DNA of 64,000 nt from Candidatus Heimdallarchaeota archaeon (GTDB taxonomy: Archaea; Asgardarchaeota; Heimdallarchaeia; Heimdallarchaeales; Heimdallarchaeaceae), in assembly GCA_030668875.1 (NCBI GenBank), contig DAOVER010000012.1, forward strand, positions 1 through 64,000, given 5' to 3'. The notes under the pieces were generated by a model. That model saw only the letters and a list, made by a program, of their open reading frames with translations. It searched no databases and had not been told where the DNA came from. Shown in pieces: positions 6,622-32,141 of this stretch (position 1 is the stretch's first letter; each line of letters opens with the position of its first letter). A program made the translations under genes and the position numbers.

Positions 6622-7071
6622 ATGAAAAAGAAAATAATATTTAATTCTACAATTGACTTATCTAATAGACGTACGAATGTTAAAATCCGGATTGTTCAAT
6701 CAAGAACTACGGTTATTGATATTCTAGGATATATTGATGACATAGTAGAAGAAAAGATATCTGAAACGTTATTGTTGGATGAGCAAAAGAAAGAAACAAC
6801 ATGGCAAAGTTCATTACTACCATTTTTTCCTAAAGAGAAAGAAGGAGAAGTTGCTCAAGTTTACTTCTGTGATGAAGTGAACCAGATTGCTGGAACATCG
6901 AATTATAAAACAATTCAATTAGTTCAAATATCGTATTTTGATGCTACCAATCCTGAAGAGGGTCTATCCAATAATATGGATTTCTTTTATTTTGATTTGA
7001 TTTCTGATTCTTTACAGATAAACTTATTTTACCGAATACAAAATTATTCACATGAGTTTAGAAAAGTGTGA
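6622..7071 (+). CDS. Hypothetical protein
   Basis: 149-aa ORF; 3' end overlaps start of next gene by 20 nt. Confidence 0.55.
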   Translation: MKKKIIFNSTIDLSNRRTNVKIRIVQSRTTVIDILGYIDDIVEEKISETLLLDEQKKETTWQSSLLPFFPKEKEGEVAQVYFCDEVNQIAGTSNYKTIQLVQISYFDATNPEEGLSNNMDFFYFDLISDSLQINLFYRIQNYSHEFRKV

Positions 7072-8005
7072 TTTAGCAATTGTTGGTTCTGGTCTAACTG
7101 GTATGTCTGCAGCCTTAGCAGCTTATAGTAGAAACTCTGATCAAATCATTAAAATTTTTGGTATACCTTTTGATTCAAACACCGCAAAAAAAGGAGAAAT
7201 TGAAAATATATTAGGTATTAACAAGGTTGTTGGAGTAGATTACATTCAACAGATAGTTACTCAAATCGAGAGTTTAGATGCAGAATTTGCAAATGAAAAT
7301 GAACCTAATAAACTAGAATTCATAAACGAAGATGTGACAGTAATAGCAAAAAATGACACTCATTTTCAATTGATTACTGATTCAAGAAACATTGACGCAA
7401 AAGCTGTCATTATTTCTACTGGTCTTCCTGAACTTAAGCATACTATCAAAGGAGAAGACAATTTTGTCCACAAAGGTGTTTCTCACTGTGCTGTATGTGA
7501 TGGTGCGCTTTTCAGAGGAAAGAAAGTAGCAATTATTGGAGAAGGAAATTTGGTGGCAAGAGGAGCTTTGTTTCTTAGAAAGTATTGTCGAAAGGTTACA
7601 GTAATCTGCCCAAATTCTACGTTGGATTCTGATAATAGATTTCTAAAAAAACTTTTAAAATCACAGAATATTTCATTCAAATATAATATTGATTTGGAAA
7701 CGGCTGAGATTTTCGGATCACAACTTGTAGAAGGTGTAAGATTTCAAGAGGATGGAGAGAATAATGAATTAACAGTAAACGCGGTCTTTGTTGAACTGAA
7801 AGATAAACCTAATCTAGCTTTTCTAAAGGATTTTTCACTTGATATCACGGAAAATGGATACATTGTGAAGGACGTAAAAAATGCTACAAGTACAGAAGGA
7901 ATTTTTACAGCTGGATCTATTAGTGGAGAAATGGATTATATTCCGATATTGATGGGTGATGGATATAAAGCCGGCATCTATGCCACCGAATATTTGAAAA
8001 AATAA
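7052..8005 (+). CDS. Thioredoxin-reductase-like flavoprotein disulfide reductase
   Basis: N-terminal GSGLTG FAD motif, redox motif HCAVCDG, second Rossmann GEGNLVARGALFL; lacks the HRRxxxR NADPH signature. Confidence 0.85.
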   Translation: MSLEKCDLAIVGSGLTGMSAALAAYSRNSDQIIKIFGIPFDSNTAKKGEIENILGINKVVGVDYIQQIVTQIESLDAEFANENEPNKLEFINEDVTVIAKNDTHFQLITDSRNIDAKAVIISTGLPELKHTIKGEDNFVHKGVSHCAVCDGALFRGKKVAIIGEGNLVARGALFLRKYCRKVTVICPNSTLDSDNRFLKKLLKSQNISFKYNIDLETAEIFGSQLVEGVRFQEDGENNELTVNAVFVELKDKPNLAFLKDFSLDITENGYIVKDVKNATSTEGIFTAGSISGEMDYIPILMGDGYKAGIYATEYLKK

Positions 8006-8059: not shown

Positions 8060-8710
8060 GTGAAACTAGCATTTATTTTCGCACATCCAGATGATGAAGC
8101 ACTTAGTGCAGGCGGCACGATAGCTAAATACGCCTCTACAGGCCATACAGTAAGCACACTATGTCTTTCATCAACAGAAGATAGAAAGATCGAATATCGT
8201 GCTGCTACAGAAATGTTGGGAGTTCAAGAACCGAAAATACTTGATTATGGCAATGTAGTAGATTTTGAGAAGCAAATAAAAAAAGATATCATTGATTTTA
8301 TTCTTGAATTTCGACCTGAGATTATTGTGACACATCTACCAGAAGACTATCACATCGATCATAAATCGGCGTATCATATTGTTAAAGAAGCGATAGAATG
8401 GGCAGCACATGAAACACAACACGATAATTCACATCTAGTTTCTAAGTTGTATGTAACAGAAACAACCATCCTTATTCCTAATCCTCACATTCTTGTTGAT
8501 ATTTCTGCATATTATAGTGTTAAAGAGAACGCTATCAAATGTTATTCAACACAGCTAAGTAAAGGAGGAGAAGGGTTCTATATTAAATTCCACAAACACA
8601 GAACGCTCATGCGAGGAACTCAAGCATCAACTGATTATGCAGAAGCTTATCTTGAAGTTCCCATTAAGAAGAATAGTCCATTTTTCAAAATTAAACATTC
8701 GGAGCTTTGA
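8060..8710 (+). CDS. PIG-L/LmbE-family zinc deacetylase (BshB candidate)
   Basis: FAHPDDEALSAGGTIAKY and EDYHIDHKSAYHIV motifs; GTG start. Confidence 0.85.
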   Translation: MKLAFIFAHPDDEALSAGGTIAKYASTGHTVSTLCLSSTEDRKIEYRAATEMLGVQEPKILDYGNVVDFEKQIKKDIIDFILEFRPEIIVTHLPEDYHIDHKSAYHIVKEAIEWAAHETQHDNSHLVSKLYVTETTILIPNPHILVDISAYYSVKENAIKCYSTQLSKGGEGFYIKFHKHRTLMRGTQASTDYAEAYLEVPIKKNSPFFKIKHSEL

Positions 8711-20934: not shown

Positions 20935-22500
20935 ATGATTCCTTATCCCTCCAAGGTGGAACCTAAGGAGAATAAATTCACCCTTAATAGTGAAACAAGG
21001 GTAAGTTTTTCTCCTGAACTTACGCAAGTAGTAGACTACTTGAAAGATTTGATTAGTAATTCAACAGGATTTAGTTTAGCAACCAATCTTGAAACTAACA
21101 AGAAGAACACAATCAGTTTAATTTTACATGATACAAATAAAATAGAGAACACAGAGGGATATCAATTATCCATAAATATGGATAACATAATAATCGAAGC
21201 TACAACTCATCAAGGCATATTCTATGGCATTCAAACCCTTAGGCAATTATTCCCTATAGAAATTGAAAGTAGAGAAGTAATTGAAGAATTTATCTGGACT
21301 GTTCCCTGTATGTCCATAGTGGATAACCCTAGATTCAAATGGAGAGGACTAATGTTTGATGTCGGTCGGCATTTCCACGATATGGAGACAATAAAACGAA
21401 CTATAGACTTGCTAGCACTAATTAAGATGAACATTTTTCACTGGCACCTTACAGAAGATCAAGGTTGGCGTATTGAGATTAAAAAATATCCCAAGTTAAT
21501 AGAAATTGGGTCAAAAAGAGAGGATACAAAGATTGGTGGGTGGACTAGTAATAAATTTCGGGGAAAATCGCACACAGGTCACTATACACAGGAACAAATA
21601 AAGGAAATAATCGAATATGCAAGCAAGAGATTCATAACCGTTATTCCAGAAATAGAGATACCAGGGCACTCATCAGCAGCAATTGCATCATATCCTGGAT
21701 TAAGTTGTGATAATAAAGAGATCAATGTTCCAACCAAATTTGGAATCTTCTATGATATATTGTGTCCTGGTAAGGAAACGACATTCGAGTTTCTTGAGAA
21801 TGTTCTAGAAGAAGTTATTAGTTTATTTCCAGCTGATATAATTCACATTGGAGGAGATGAAGCTCCCAAGAAAAAATGGAGACAATGTAAAGATTGTCAG
21901 AAAAGGATGAAAGATGAAGATTTGAAATCTATACATGAGCTACAGCATTACACCACTAAACGAATAGGGAAGTTCTTAGCAAGTAAAGGTAAAAGATTAA
22001 TGGGATGGAATGAAATATTAACAGAGACCACAGATAGAAAATTCATTGCACAATGGTGGATGAGAGGGAAGAGGGATATTAAAAAACATATTAACGAGGG
22101 AGGAGAAGTAGTTATTTCTAAGTTTTCCCGTGTTTATCTTGATTATAATTACATCGTGACACCACTGAAAAAAACCTATTCTCATGAGCCTATGTTAAAG
22201 AAAATTAAGCCTGAACAGCAGAAACAGTTACTCGGAGTTGAAGCACCAATATGGACAGAATGGGTTCCTAATAGAGACCGACTAGATTGGCAAGTATTTC
22301 CTAGATTAGCAGCTGTTTCTGAAATCGGATGGACGAGCAGGAGTAATAAAAACTACAAAAGTTTCAGAAAGAGACTTATCAGCTTTTCCCGAAGATTAGA
22401 CTATTTGGGAGTTAATCATGCAGATCTAGAGAAGGTTGATCCTAATCTGTTGAAAAGAATATGGAATTTAAGAAGAGTACTTAAATGGCCAGAAATCTGA
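20935..22500 (+). CDS. GH20 beta-N-acetylhexosaminidase
   Basis: FKWRGLMFDVGRHFHD, HWHLTEDQGWRIEIKKYPKL, PEIEIPGHSSA, HIGGDEAPKKKW. Confidence 0.93.
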   Translation: MIPYPSKVEPKENKFTLNSETRVSFSPELTQVVDYLKDLISNSTGFSLATNLETNKKNTISLILHDTNKIENTEGYQLSINMDNIIIEATTHQGIFYGIQTLRQLFPIEIESREVIEEFIWTVPCMSIVDNPRFKWRGLMFDVGRHFHDMETIKRTIDLLALIKMNIFHWHLTEDQGWRIEIKKYPKLIEIGSKREDTKIGGWTSNKFRGKSHTGHYTQEQIKEIIEYASKRFITVIPEIEIPGHSSAAIASYPGLSCDNKEINVPTKFGIFYDILCPGKETTFEFLENVLEEVISLFPADIIHIGGDEAPKKKWRQCKDCQKRMKDEDLKSIHELQHYTTKRIGKFLASKGKRLMGWNEILTETTDRKFIAQWWMRGKRDIKKHINEGGEVVISKFSRVYLDYNYIVTPLKKTYSHEPMLKKIKPEQQKQLLGVEAPIWTEWVPNRDRLDWQVFPRLAAVSEIGWTSRSNKNYKSFRKRLISFSRRLDYLGVNHADLEKVDPNLLKRIWNLRRVLKWPEI

Positions 22501-23479: not shown

Positions 23480-23510
23480 AATCTTATACCAATAGAGTTC
23501 TGTGGTTATT

Positions 23511-24047
23511 ATGAGTTCAAGAAATAACAAAATGATTCGGGTCTCTATTTGCAATTTTCATACTTGTAATCCGAAAATATGTACAGCTCAAAAAATCATC
23601 AGATCTAAAAAAGCATTTGAAATTCAAATCAAACAAATACAATCTCAGAGTATAGTATTAACTCCTTTTTCTTTCACCGCTATTTCAATAGAGGATCGTG
23701 AATTAGCGTTAAGAAATGGATTAATTGGTGTAGATTGTTCTTGGAATAACATAGAAGGGGGGGAAGAAGCTTTGAGTAGAGGAACAGGTAGAGCACTACC
23801 CTTCTTAGTTGCTGCAAATCCTGTAAACTATGGGAAACCTTCAAAGTTAAGCACACTCGAAGCAATAGCTGCTGCATTGTATATTTTAGGTGACAGGACT
23901 CAATCAGAAGAAATTTTATCACTTGTTAAATGGGGGGGTGAGTTTTTGAAAATAAATAAGAAATATCTTGAACTATATGCGAATGCGAAAAGCAGTAAAG
24001 AAGTAGTTGAAGCTCAAACAAACATAATGGATGAGCTTTATGACTAA
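23511..24047 (+). CDS. tsr3: Tsr3-like rRNA aminocarboxypropyltransferase (DUF367)
   Basis: NPKICTAQKII, GVDCSWNN, RALPFLVAANPVNYGKPSKLSTLEAIAAALYILG. Confidence 0.9.
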   Translation: MSSRNNKMIRVSICNFHTCNPKICTAQKIIRSKKAFEIQIKQIQSQSIVLTPFSFTAISIEDRELALRNGLIGVDCSWNNIEGGEEALSRGTGRALPFLVAANPVNYGKPSKLSTLEAIAAALYILGDRTQSEEILSLVKWGGEFLKINKKYLELYANAKSSKEVVEAQTNIMDELYD

Positions 24048-24112: not shown

Positions 24113-25228
24113 ATGAAAATAGGCATCAACTGTTTTCCAACTGTAGGAGGGTCAGGTATAGTTGCTACTCAACTAGCTATTGAAATAGCTAAAAAAGGTC
24201 ATGAAGTTCATCTCATCAGCTACGACACACCATTTTTGTTACGAACTTTTCGACATCCTAACATAACTCTTGATCTAGTAGATATTATCTCATATCCACT
24301 TTTCAAAGATATTGGTGCCCCTTATACCATTCTCGCAGCTTCAAAACTTGTACAAATAGCTAGAAAATCAGAGATTGATTTAATGCATATTCATTATGCA
24401 ATACCAGTAGGGGTCTCAGCATATTTAACCAAGCAAATCGCTAATGTTCCCGTAGCAATAACAGCCCATGGATCAGATATTCACACATTAGGAATTGACC
24501 CTGCATATAATCCTATAATATCCCACGTTTTTGATAATGTAGATGGAATGTCAACAGTATCTAATTACTTGAAAGAAGAGATGATCAACAAGTTTTCTAG
24601 TCAAAAAGAGATTGAAGTTTTCTACAATCCAATTGATATTAATAAATACAAAAAGATAGACACCGAGCTTTGTGATTTTAGGCTTAAACATGAGAAAAAT
24701 TTTGCGCATATTTCTAACTTTAGACCAGTAAAGAGAGCTCCTTTTATTGTCGAAGCATTCGCAGAAGTTGTTAAAGAACATCCTGATTTAGGATTGATTA
24801 TGGTTGGAGAGGGACCAGAAAGAAAGAAATGTGAAGAACTAGCATACAAATTAGGAATCTCAGACCATGTGATATTCCAAGGAGTTCGTGTTGCTCTCAC
24901 ATCTATTTACAATTGTGCAACAGCTCTTCTCTCAGCAAGTACTAACGAAAGCTTCGGTTTAACTCTTGCTGAAGCTATGGCTTGTGAAGTACCTGTCATT
25001 GCTCCAAGAGTTGGAGGTATTCCCGAGGTTATTGATCACAATGAAAATGGATTCATGTACGAGTTAGAGGATAAAACTGCATTGATCGACTACATGAAGC
25101 AACTTTTGGATGATGAACAATTGAAACTGAAATTTGGTAGAAATGGAAGAAACAAGGTAGAAAAACAGTTCGAATCGTCTAAGATTGCAGATCAATATAT
25201 TGCTTGGTACGAAAAATTATTGGAGTAA
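24113..25228 (+). CDS. bshA: BshA-like GT4 glycosyltransferase (GlcNAc-malate synthase)
   Basis: TVGGSGIVATQLAIEIAKKGHEVHLISYDTPF, HIHYAIPVGVSAYL, AHGSDIHTLG, HISNFRPVKR, ESFGLTLAEAMACEVPVIAPRVGGIPEVI. Confidence 0.82.
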   Translation: MKIGINCFPTVGGSGIVATQLAIEIAKKGHEVHLISYDTPFLLRTFRHPNITLDLVDIISYPLFKDIGAPYTILAASKLVQIARKSEIDLMHIHYAIPVGVSAYLTKQIANVPVAITAHGSDIHTLGIDPAYNPIISHVFDNVDGMSTVSNYLKEEMINKFSSQKEIEVFYNPIDINKYKKIDTELCDFRLKHEKNFAHISNFRPVKRAPFIVEAFAEVVKEHPDLGLIMVGEGPERKKCEELAYKLGISDHVIFQGVRVALTSIYNCATALLSASTNESFGLTLAEAMACEVPVIAPRVGGIPEVIDHNENGFMYELEDKTALIDYMKQLLDDEQLKLKFGRNGRNKVEKQFESSKIADQYIAWYEKLLE

Positions 25229-26851
25229 TCACAGCATAGAATTGATGAACCCAATTCCCCCTACGGGCGTATCCGGGGAGTAATGTCTTCTATATGAAGC
25301 TATACCATCATTTAAACCAGTAACAGCAGCCATTACAAACCATGGCCAACTGACTTCTTGCCATTGATGTTTGTCATCATACATACCATATTGCCAGGAT
25401 TTAAATCGATCAATGAGACTGGTTGGTTTGTTTTTTACTTTCTTAATAGCTAATCTTCTATTATTGACATAATCACCTAGATTTTTAGTATGTTTTTTGA
25501 GCTCAGTTATTTCGCCCTTTCTTCTTGCTTTTGCAAGAGAACCTAAAATGCCAAAGAATTCTGGAGTAAGAATTGAAAATGGTTCAAGAGAAGGATCCTT
25601 GCTATATTTCTCAATCCAAGGTGTGTTATATAGCATTCGAGTGTATTTCACGTATAATGGAAACTTAAAACCTAGTTTTTGAACAGCTGGAATAACTTGA
25701 GCATTATAATTAATTTCTCCAGGCCCAGATATTCTGATATACGTGGGGATAATAGTTTGAAGTAGAGCTTGATTAGTATCCAGACGTGGATAAAGGTTCT
25801 TTACGTGAGATGATAGATCAATATTATCTTTACTCACACTGAATGAATAGTCAACACTATCAATAGGACACTTCCCTTGAAAAAGTAAAACACCATCATT
25901 CTCCCTACATGACATTTTAATTCTGTAATGATCATTCGGACATTCATAAAAGAAAGGAGAATAATCAGGTTTCTTTTTCGCTGTAGTTGGTTTGAATCCT
26001 AGTTCTTCAATTTTCTCTGTTGCTCTATTAAACTCGCAAATATAGTTAGATCGAGATTGTAAAAATGGTGCATATCCCTCAGAGGTCATTTTACGAATTT
26101 CTGGATGGGAAGTTGGAAAGAACACTATCCCCCAGTCATTGATAATGTTTGTTTGAATACCCCAGATAAGTGTCATCCATTCACCTAAGTCTGATGAGCT
26201 TCTGTATGTTTCTCTAAGGAAAGTAAGGATATGTTCGGTTTTTTCGAGAAATAATTTCGATTTATCCTTGTTTATAGTGGATTTGAATTCACTAAATATA
26301 TTCTTGATGACTGAAAGACTCTCTTCTAACCATGTGTAATTATTAGAAGTAATTGTGTTTGCTATAATGCCTTCTATAGCATCAGGAAGATTTATTGCCT
26401 TACTGACTGATGATTGATAATTTGGCAGATGAATTGTTGTAATTTCAGGTTGAATGCTATCATGGGTATTGATTAAAAAGACTGGAACTAGAAATTTTCC
26501 TTTCTTCTTACTAATTTCGGATACATTGGCAATTGCGGAAATCTTATTTCCAATTATTCCAGTACCACCAAATATAGTAGCTTGTTGACCTGCTAATACA
26601 ACTCCTTCTTGTAATTTTGAAATATTATCTTCTGTTTTTGGAGTGAGAATTCCAAGACTTTCATGATACTTTGTAAGTATGTGTTTAATTTTTGAGATCT
26701 TTCCACCTTCAATCTTAATCTCAGGCATTGAAGATGCATATTCTACAGCATCACCATAAGTTTTGGGAATATTGTTGTAAAAGTAAGCAGAATCTGGAAA
26801 ATCAGCTTGTTCATTCAAATAAGCTTCGTACAAATCTCCAATTCTTTCCAT
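25229..26851 (-). CDS. bshC: BshC-like cysteine-adding enzyme
   Basis: VVLAGQQATIFGGTGIIGNKISAIANVSEISKKKGKFLVPVFLINTHDSIQPEITTIHLP; LLQTIIPTYIRISGPGEINYNAQVIPAVQKLG. Confidence 0.8.
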   Translation of the reverse strand: MERIGDLYEAYLNEQADFPDSAYFYNNIPKTYGDAVEYASSMPEIKIEGGKISKIKHILTKYHESLGILTPKTEDNISKLQEGVVLAGQQATIFGGTGIIGNKISAIANVSEISKKKGKFLVPVFLINTHDSIQPEITTIHLPNYQSSVSKAINLPDAIEGIIANTITSNNYTWLEESLSVIKNIFSEFKSTINKDKSKLFLEKTEHILTFLRETYRSSSDLGEWMTLIWGIQTNIINDWGIVFFPTSHPEIRKMTSEGYAPFLQSRSNYICEFNRATEKIEELGFKPTTAKKKPDYSPFFYECPNDHYRIKMSCRENDGVLLFQGKCPIDSVDYSFSVSKDNIDLSSHVKNLYPRLDTNQALLQTIIPTYIRISGPGEINYNAQVIPAVQKLGFKFPLYVKYTRMLYNTPWIEKYSKDPSLEPFSILTPEFFGILGSLAKARRKGEITELKKHTKNLGDYVNNRRLAIKKVKNKPTSLIDRFKSWQYGMYDDKHQWQEVSWPWFVMAAVTGLNDGIASYRRHYSPDTPVGGIGFINSML

Positions 26852-26928
26852 ATTAGAAGGTGAATCTCTACATGTTCTTAACAATTCTTATATATCATTT
26901 TTCCAGGTTTATTCTAGAGGAATCAAAC

Positions 26929-27276
26929 ATGAATAATCATGGTTTTGCACACATAGAACTCCCAGCTAAAGACCTAGAAAAAACAAAAGAGTTCTACGAA
27001 TCTGTCTTTGAGTGGGGAGAGGTAATTCAGACAGGCTTCGATGATTATACTTTTTTCAAAGAAACAGAAGACAGTATTGGTGGAGCTTTTCAGAAATCAG
27101 ACAAAACAACTAATGGTGAAGTTACATTGTATATCAATACAGATGACATTGATTTATCTTTAGAAAAAATCAAGGACGCTAAAGGAGAGATTGTTCAAAA
27201 AAAGACTCAAGTTTCTGAAGAACATGGGTTCTATGCTTTGTTTAAGAACCTTTCTGGTAATGTAATGAGTCTCTGA
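26929..27276 (+). CDS. Glyoxalase/VOC-family protein
   Basis: GFAHIELPAKDLEKTKEFYESVFEWGE ... YALFKNLSGNVMSL. Confidence 0.85.
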   Translation: MNNHGFAHIELPAKDLEKTKEFYESVFEWGEVIQTGFDDYTFFKETEDSIGGAFQKSDKTTNGEVTLYINTDDIDLSLEKIKDAKGEIVQKKTQVSEEHGFYALFKNLSGNVMSL

Positions 27277-30917: not shown

Positions 30918-32141
30918 TTATTCCATTGGAAAGGCGGCATATCCTCTGAACTCAATCCAGTCCCTTAGTTCATCTTCTATTATTTCTTGTATTGCATCTT
31001 GGTCTAGATCTTTAGACATGTTTTCATCTGTTGTTAACATAGCCATAACATAACGTTCGCCACTGAATTTCAAATCACGAAGAATGAAAATTTCATTTAC
31101 ATTGTCATCTAGAGTATACCGTCTAATTCTTAGAAAGGGTTCTCGTATATCAACAATTGATTCGATTGCATCATAATATGCATTATGAGCTAAGTCTTCA
31201 AGCTCTTCTTCTTTTGCAAATCTAGCAAAACAGACATTGCTTCTGAAATCGTACAAACCAAAGAAATCTGAATCTAGCCCCTCAGCAACACTTTTTGTGG
31301 CTTGCTGCACACCCTCTTGTATTAAGGAAATTCCTCTAAATATGTGTGAGAATGCACCAAGAATAGATGAACGAATTCTAACACTTGTTCTAAAGAAATC
31401 TTTTGCAGGATTAAAGTAAGGACATTTATCAGCCATGTATTCAATGATGGAACTGAAAACCTCTGCACTTTTATCGTCAATCTCATATTCAGGATCTGAT
31501 TTGTGGAAGAAAATTTTCCAAGGAACTTTAATTTTGAGATTGTTTGCTACATTAATAATTTGTTTTAGATATTCAAAACTTTCTTGGAATCTATCTTTAG
31601 CTTGTATATCTATCACATAGATTATAGTATCTGTTCCAACAAAATATTGCTGTGGATTTTCTAAATAATCTTCACGGTAAATACTTTGCCCTCCTAACTC
31701 GTGAAGATGAACATCCATTCCAAAAACTTCAATTTTGCTGCGAAGAAGACCGCGGGTTGGTGTTAATCCATTTAATCTCTGGAATAAAGAGGATAATGCA
31801 CCCCTATGTTTTAATGCGATTGAAAGAGAAGTTTTTCCAGCGTTGTCAATACCAACCATTATTATTTTTGCACCAGTAGTGACTTTCTCTGTTTCCTCAA
31901 CTAATAAAAGTCTGCTAGCAGCTATCCAACTATTTATTCTCTCTTTGGGGACTTTCTTAGCCATTTTAGCGTATTGATCACTCCATTTGGTAGAGAGATT
32001 CTCAATTGTGTCTAAACCTAGTTCTTTCAAGAGTTTAGATTCTTCTTCTGTTATATCTAACAGAGCTACAACAGGAAAGTTCCTAAGATCTTCTTTATCC
32101 TTGTATTCATCTTTTAGCAATTTGTCCTTTAGTTCAGACAT
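30918..32141 (-). CDS. Asgard-type Arf/Rag-like GTPase with N-terminal helical (HhH/SAM-like) and C-terminal longin/roadblock-like regions
   Basis: GIDNAGKTS P-loop, HELGGQ, FHKSD (Rag-like HKxD); about 70-aa N-terminal and about 130-aa C-terminal extra regions. Confidence 0.8.
   Translation of the reverse strand: MSELKDKLLKDEYKDKEDLRNFPVVALLDITEEESKLLKELGLDTIENLSTKWSDQYAKMAKKVPKERINSWIAASRLLLVEETEKVTTGAKIIMVGIDNAGKTSLSIALKHRGALSSLFQRLNGLTPTRGLLRSKIEVFGMDVHLHELGGQSIYREDYLENPQQYFVGTDTIIYVIDIQAKDRFQESFEYLKQIINVANNLKIKVPWKIFFHKSDPEYEIDDKSAEVFSSIIEYMADKCPYFNPAKDFFRTSVRIRSSILGAFSHIFRGISLIQEGVQQATKSVAEGLDSDFFGLYDFRSNVCFARFAKEEELEDLAHNAYYDAIESIVDIREPFLRIRRYTLDDNVNEIFILRDLKFSGERYVMAMLTTDENMSKDLDQDAIQEIIEDELRDWIEFRGYAAFPME

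Follow-up and report, generated by a model that had tools for sequence, protein, structure and literature searches.

A predicted bacillithiol-type gene set with a separate archaeal BshC subfamily in a Heimdallarchaeota genome

Two genes lying tail to tail in the 64-kb stretch of DNA analysed here (the window) resemble bshA and bshC of the bacterial bacillithiol pathway, which raises the question of whether an archaeon encodes a complete pathway to bacillithiol, or whether the pair has some other role. The window is part of a 3.2-Mb genome from the Asgard archaea, a group often placed nearest to the eukaryotes; of the named genomes, Candidatus Heimdallarchaeota MAGs such as AB_125 are nearest to this one, and Ca. 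Heimdallarchaeum endolithica PR6, which has a closed chromosome, belongs to the same family. In the excerpted text of their 2020 review, Rawat and Maupin-Furlow give 39 archaeal InterPro matches each for BshA and BshC, mostly from Asgard archaea, and suggest bacillithiol for this group, although the thiol was undetected in archaea; these excerpts do not deal with bshB, gene clustering, the descent of the genes, a BshC subfamily or a linked reductase (PMC7278568).

The first gene of the pair (24113–25228, + strand) is an intact open reading frame encoding 371 residues, which matches the curated BshA equivalog model (TIGR03999) over its full length with 368.3 bits (cut-off 273.7). Its closest solved relatives are all BshA proteins (2jjm, 3mbo and 5d00 at approximately 275 bits; 6n1x and 6d9t at approximately 236 bits), whilst the next GT4 structure, a non-BshA protein, reaches only 69 bits. 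These matches, together with the trees described below, identify the gene as bshA, a GT4 N-acetyl-glucosaminyl-L-malate synthase that is predicted from its sequence to join UDP-GlcNAc and L-malate. The bshC gene occupies 25229–26851 on the − strand, and the two stop codons abut with 0 nt between them (TAA at 25226–25228 for bshA; TGA at 25231–25229 on the − strand for bshC); this tail-to-tail arrangement recurs among relatives, mostly with a spacing of −14 to +48 nt. The earlier note had described bshA and bshC as convergent and abutting in an archaeon, quoting motif blocks from each protein. Every one of these blocks is present in the translations, the stop codons touch, and the TIGR03999 and PF10079 scores lie far beyond chance, confirming the description.

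The BshC protein comprises 540 residues from the ATG, although a TTG at 26884 is a possible alternative start. It matches the Rossmann-like BshC domain (PF10079) with 85.7 bits (gathering cut-off 27), yet reaches no more than 91.7 bits with the curated model TIGR03998 (equivalog cut-off 265.8), and is therefore not filed as the bacterial equivalog. The earlier note had looked to the curated models for support, and had named a BshC below its model, or a GT4 grouping with non-BshA glycosyltransferases, as findings against its reading; BshA is recognised by its model and groups with BshA structures, whereas BshC does fall short, because it belongs to an archaeal subfamily under the curated cut-off. 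The fold, the profile comparison and the conserved residues of BshC outweigh this score. B. subtilis BshC (4wbd) is the sole solved sequence match, and is also the best PDB match (Foldseek E 1.4e-20, TM 0.68) of the structure predicted for the window protein by ColabFold from 53 homologues (pLDDT 94.7, pTM 0.94). A model of a Thorarchaeota BshC behaves alike (pLDDT 94.5; 4wbd at E 2.5e-19), and alignment of the archaeal and bacterial BshC profiles by HHalign gives a probability of 100% (E 2e-59, 511 columns).

Thirteen residues (Q90, G96, K103, D131, E136, F300, R310, G376, E379, Y382, P398, Q498 and E499) show no variation across the BshC subfamilies sampled, and each is conserved at a level of at least 99% when 76 archaeal sequences and 24 of bacterial type are compared. 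That two very distant subfamilies share these near-invariant positions points to the active site. Others (N102, N235, R356, Y403, G489 and W504) are conserved only in archaea. The archaeal proteins also carry a cysteine-rich ribbon that is missing from the bacterial form, in which C304 and C328 are nearly universal; there are usually four ribbon cysteines in Thorarchaeota, Bathyarchaeota, f5 and f11 sequences, and fewer in the window family, where the ribbon is degenerate. From the cysteine pattern one might guess that the ribbon binds zinc, a pattern that is itself degenerate in the window protein. The C-terminal helical part is altered, and is several tens of residues shorter in the order to which the window genome belongs; this region of the window protein has no Pfam match to the coiled-coil domain PF24850, its model has long helices, and the QE motif (498–499) is retained. 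Archaeal BshC is predicted to add cysteine to GlcN-malate, a reaction for which, as of 2015, there was no in vitro demonstration even for bacterial BshC (PMC4360819); the archaeal subfamily offers a handle on BshC.

The middle enzyme of the pathway, overlooked in the earlier note, is encoded within the same window, approximately 15 kb from bshA, so that the set is complete. This gene (bshB; 8060–8710, + strand) encodes a PIG-L family protein (PF02585, 81 bits; gathering score 28.2) with AHPDDE and DYHIDH motifs, which is predicted to be the GlcNAc-malate deacetylase. Among NCBIfam models BshB1 fits it best (94.9 bits, below the equivalog cut-off of 182.5), and among solved structures it is closest to 2ixd, an LmbE-type protein from Bacillus, and to the BshB1 deacetylase 6p2t. 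The assignment draws on orthology as well as on PF02585: in the tree, the window protein is sister (support 98) to the bshB products encoded inside bsh clusters of other Heimdallarchaeia, and an ortholog is present in all 24 of the 24 family genomes. The genome encodes two further PIG-L proteins, which were considered for this role and rejected, as they lie on long branches outside the bshB clade. When bshB and bshA share a contig, they are approximately 13–26 kb apart in the family, and approximately 13 kb apart in the closed H. endolithica chromosome.

The identities, orthology and synteny of these genes, and the fold and conserved residues of BshC, are direct observations; to them we add, by inference, a set of reactions, a product and a role for a linked reductase. 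The window probably encodes a complete bacillithiol-type pathway that yields bacillithiol (Cys-GlcN-malate) or a very close relative. BshA would form GlcNAc-malate from UDP-GlcNAc and L-malate, the PIG-L protein encoded at 8060 would deacetylate it, and the archaeal-type BshC would add cysteine to give the thiol; these are the reactions of the bacterial pathway (PMC6282198, PMC4360819). The same three families, with the same roles by homology, make up the B. subtilis pathway (BshA, BshB1/BshB2, BshC), which the archaeal set resembles in its GT4 BshA above the cut-off, its PIG-L deacetylase, and the fold and invariant residues of its BshC. It differs in BshC and BshB, each of which forms an archaeal subfamily of its own that scores under the curated cut-off, in the cysteine ribbon and altered C-terminal helical part of BshC, in gene order, and in the lack of a bacilliredoxin (a search of 21 archaeal genomes for PF06491 gave no match, whereas Bhargavaea and B. 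subtilis were positive). The logic of the mycothiol pathway (MshA, MshB, MshC) is analogous, with a GT4 enzyme, a PIG-L deacetylase, and a class I aaRS-like cysteine ligase; however, the MshA model gives the window BshA only 89.7 bits against a cut-off of 462.5, and the MshC fold matches the window BshC model at E 0.42, far weaker than 4wbd.

Directly upstream of bshB is a gene (7052–8005, + strand) for a thioredoxin-reductase-like flavoprotein with a CAVC motif, which adjoins the bshB ortholog at every locus examined in the family. Sister families encode a relative of this protein head to head with bshC; in the tree, the bshB-linked and bshC-linked proteins fall into a single clade (support 96) that excludes the other sampled proteins of thioredoxin-reductase type. 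The window protein shares the FAD/NAD(P) disulfide reductase family with thioredoxin reductase and YpdA, and has a CxxC as in thioredoxin reductase, but it falls below both cut-offs (198.5 versus 343.45 for thioredoxin reductase; 58.1 versus 339.9 for YpdA, TIGR04018) and belongs to the separate, bsh-linked clade. This linkage and clade suggest that the flavoprotein probably reduces the oxidised thiol again, either by itself or by way of a carrier, making it a concrete candidate for disulfide recycling. The window genome contains no YpdA above the cut-off (best 69.3 versus 339.9), whilst three Heimdallarchaeia of the sister family f4 (G033, G039 and G041), which also carry archaeal bsh genes, do (355–370 bits).

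The earlier note had also placed a VOC/glyoxalase-family gene immediately after bshC, as a possible thiol-dependent detoxification partner. The gene (26929–27276, + strand; PF00903, 37.9 bits) in fact lies upstream of bshC, head to head with it, its likely ATG being at approximately 26929. As a partner it is a weak candidate, since only about every second locus of the family has it next to bshC, and its matches to FosX and KbpA are far below the cut-offs.

Complete, clustered bshA–bshB–bshC sets are also present in other Heimdallarchaeia, in Thorarchaeota, in a Kariarchaeota MAG and in six Bathyarchaeota MAGs. Most of the other Heimdallarchaeia loci, like the Kariarchaeota and Bathyarchaeota MAGs, have a convergent bshA–bshC pair whose ends almost meet, and a bshB nearby; the Thorarchaeota instead have the two genes in tandem, with a divergent bshB beside bshA. 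A BshC match is present in 91 of the 95 Asgard genomes having BshA at E 1e-60 or better, as cross-counted by hand from the BshA and BshC match tables. BshA is rare in the Bathyarchaeota phylum (1 of 400 genomes drawn, namely the centre genome itself). The Loki-like families f18–f20 have a GT2–bshB–bshC cluster and no BshA match (L048–L053; L232:7996-11370), the last of these loci being in a closed genome (G090, one contig of 6,035,313 bases). The nearest NCBIfam model to this GT2 is the polyprenyl-phospho-GalNAc synthase PpgS, below the cut-off; the deacetylase is BshB1-type and mostly above the cut-off, and BshC is of the archaeal form. These clusters may make a cysteinyl-hexosamine of another kind, which might be linked to a lipid. 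Family f7 and genome G171 have a bacterial-type bshC–bshB–bshA operon (L038–L040) with a BshC above the curated cut-off; this operon goes with bacteria in the BshC tree, as does that of f7, less firmly, in the BshA tree, and it is most likely a separate import from bacteria.

These sets contradict a 2025 survey, which reported no archaeon with a complete bacillithiol pathway; its use of Chlorobaculum queries with a BLAST threshold of E 1e-20 may explain why they were missed (PMC12719100). A full-text literature search for bacillithiol with Asgard or Bathyarchaeota returned nothing beyond this survey and the 2020 review, and in the literature covered, which included few subscription papers, we found no account of complete sets, a separate archaeal subfamily of BshC, the assignment of BshB or the linked reductase. 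The gene sets bear on the redox thiol of Asgard archaea, including Heimdallarchaeia, which are thought to encounter oxygen (PMC11193907).

Given the bacterial-type operons of f7 and G171, the window set might itself be a recent transfer from bacteria, or the contig a bacterial contaminant in the MAG. The trees disfavour this. A fully supported branch of approximately 3 changes per site separates archaeal from bacterial BshC; in the BshB tree a branch with support 98 sets the archaeal cluster sequences apart, and in the BshA tree the archaeal sequences are set apart with support 93/80, a suggestive rather than firm separation. A split in all three proteins argues against recent transfer, although the bacterial sampling is mostly Bacillota, because BshA matched only one plasmid record, and includes no outgroup, so that the trees give neither the age nor the direction of the split. 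The neighbours also include archaeal proteasome subunits and a Gtr1/RagA-Arf-type GTPase with additional N-terminal sequence (30918–32141), and the same gene order is found in the closed H. endolithica chromosome. Recent import or contamination is thus scarcely credible here, and the bsh set looks long resident in archaea.

Within the archaeal set, several points count against a full pathway to bacillithiol: BshC and BshB lie below their equivalog cut-offs, bshB is some 15 kb from bshA in this family, the window genome has no YpdA above the cut-off, the 21 archaeal genomes gave no bacilliredoxin match, and the 2020 review gives the thiol as undetected in archaea. The sub-threshold scores, along with a GH20 hexosaminidase gene (20935–22500) 2.5 kb from the pair, could indicate that the bsh genes no longer serve thiol synthesis and that BshC and the GT4 enzyme have been reused, for instance in modifying surface glycans. 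We regard such reuse as very improbable, since all three proteins keep their conserved motifs, the three genes travel together in several archaeal classes amid different surroundings, and a disulfide-reductase-type gene is linked to them in two layouts. It is rather less difficult, but still unlikely, that the product is a different cysteinyl-glucosamine thiol, with an acceptor other than malate, or a further-modified bacillithiol such as the N-methyl form, which exists in bacteria (PMC6282198). The great divergence of archaeal BshC would fit this, as would the Loki-like clusters, where BshC and BshB are paired with a GT2 rather than with BshA, and which therefore indicate that the BshC family can serve other sugars. 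The malate acceptor, however, is set by BshA and not by BshC, and the window BshA passes its equivalog model with full-length similarity to BshA proteins of known structure. We therefore favour bacillithiol or a very close relative as the product, and the curated models, structure, synteny and trees speak for bacillithiol-type BshA and BshC in an archaeon, as the earlier note had proposed.

The fold of BshC also offers a lead on its origin. Once BshC itself is set aside, both archaeal models are closest to class I lysyl-tRNA synthetase (1irx; Foldseek E 8e-7 and 2.5e-8, probability 1.00), well ahead of MetRS, CysRS and MshC. Comparison of archaeal or bacterial BshC with 24 Asgard LysRS-I sequences by HHalign gave no link (probability at most 0.5%), and descent of BshC from class I LysRS, rejected at the level of sequence despite the fold match, is retained as a lead only. 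More speculatively, the cysteinyl-glucosamine thiol might be an old archaeal trait with its own BshC branch, for which LysRS-I is the nearest non-BshC fold, and which the Loki-like Asgards coupled to a GT2 rather than to BshA, giving a different, possibly polyprenyl-linked, thiol; we hold this composite view only tentatively and think it unlikely.

Other genes recur beside the bsh pairs. A TSR3/DUF367 gene, encoding a predicted rRNA aminocarboxypropyltransferase (23502–24047 in the window), adjoins bshA across the window family and bshC in family f3. The Thorarchaeota loci almost without exception have bshC tail to tail with a gene of approximately 423 codons for a PLP-dependent aminotransferase-like protein (for example L044:6323-7594 and L034:7000-8271), and such a gene also faces bshC in family f5, which has no BshA match.
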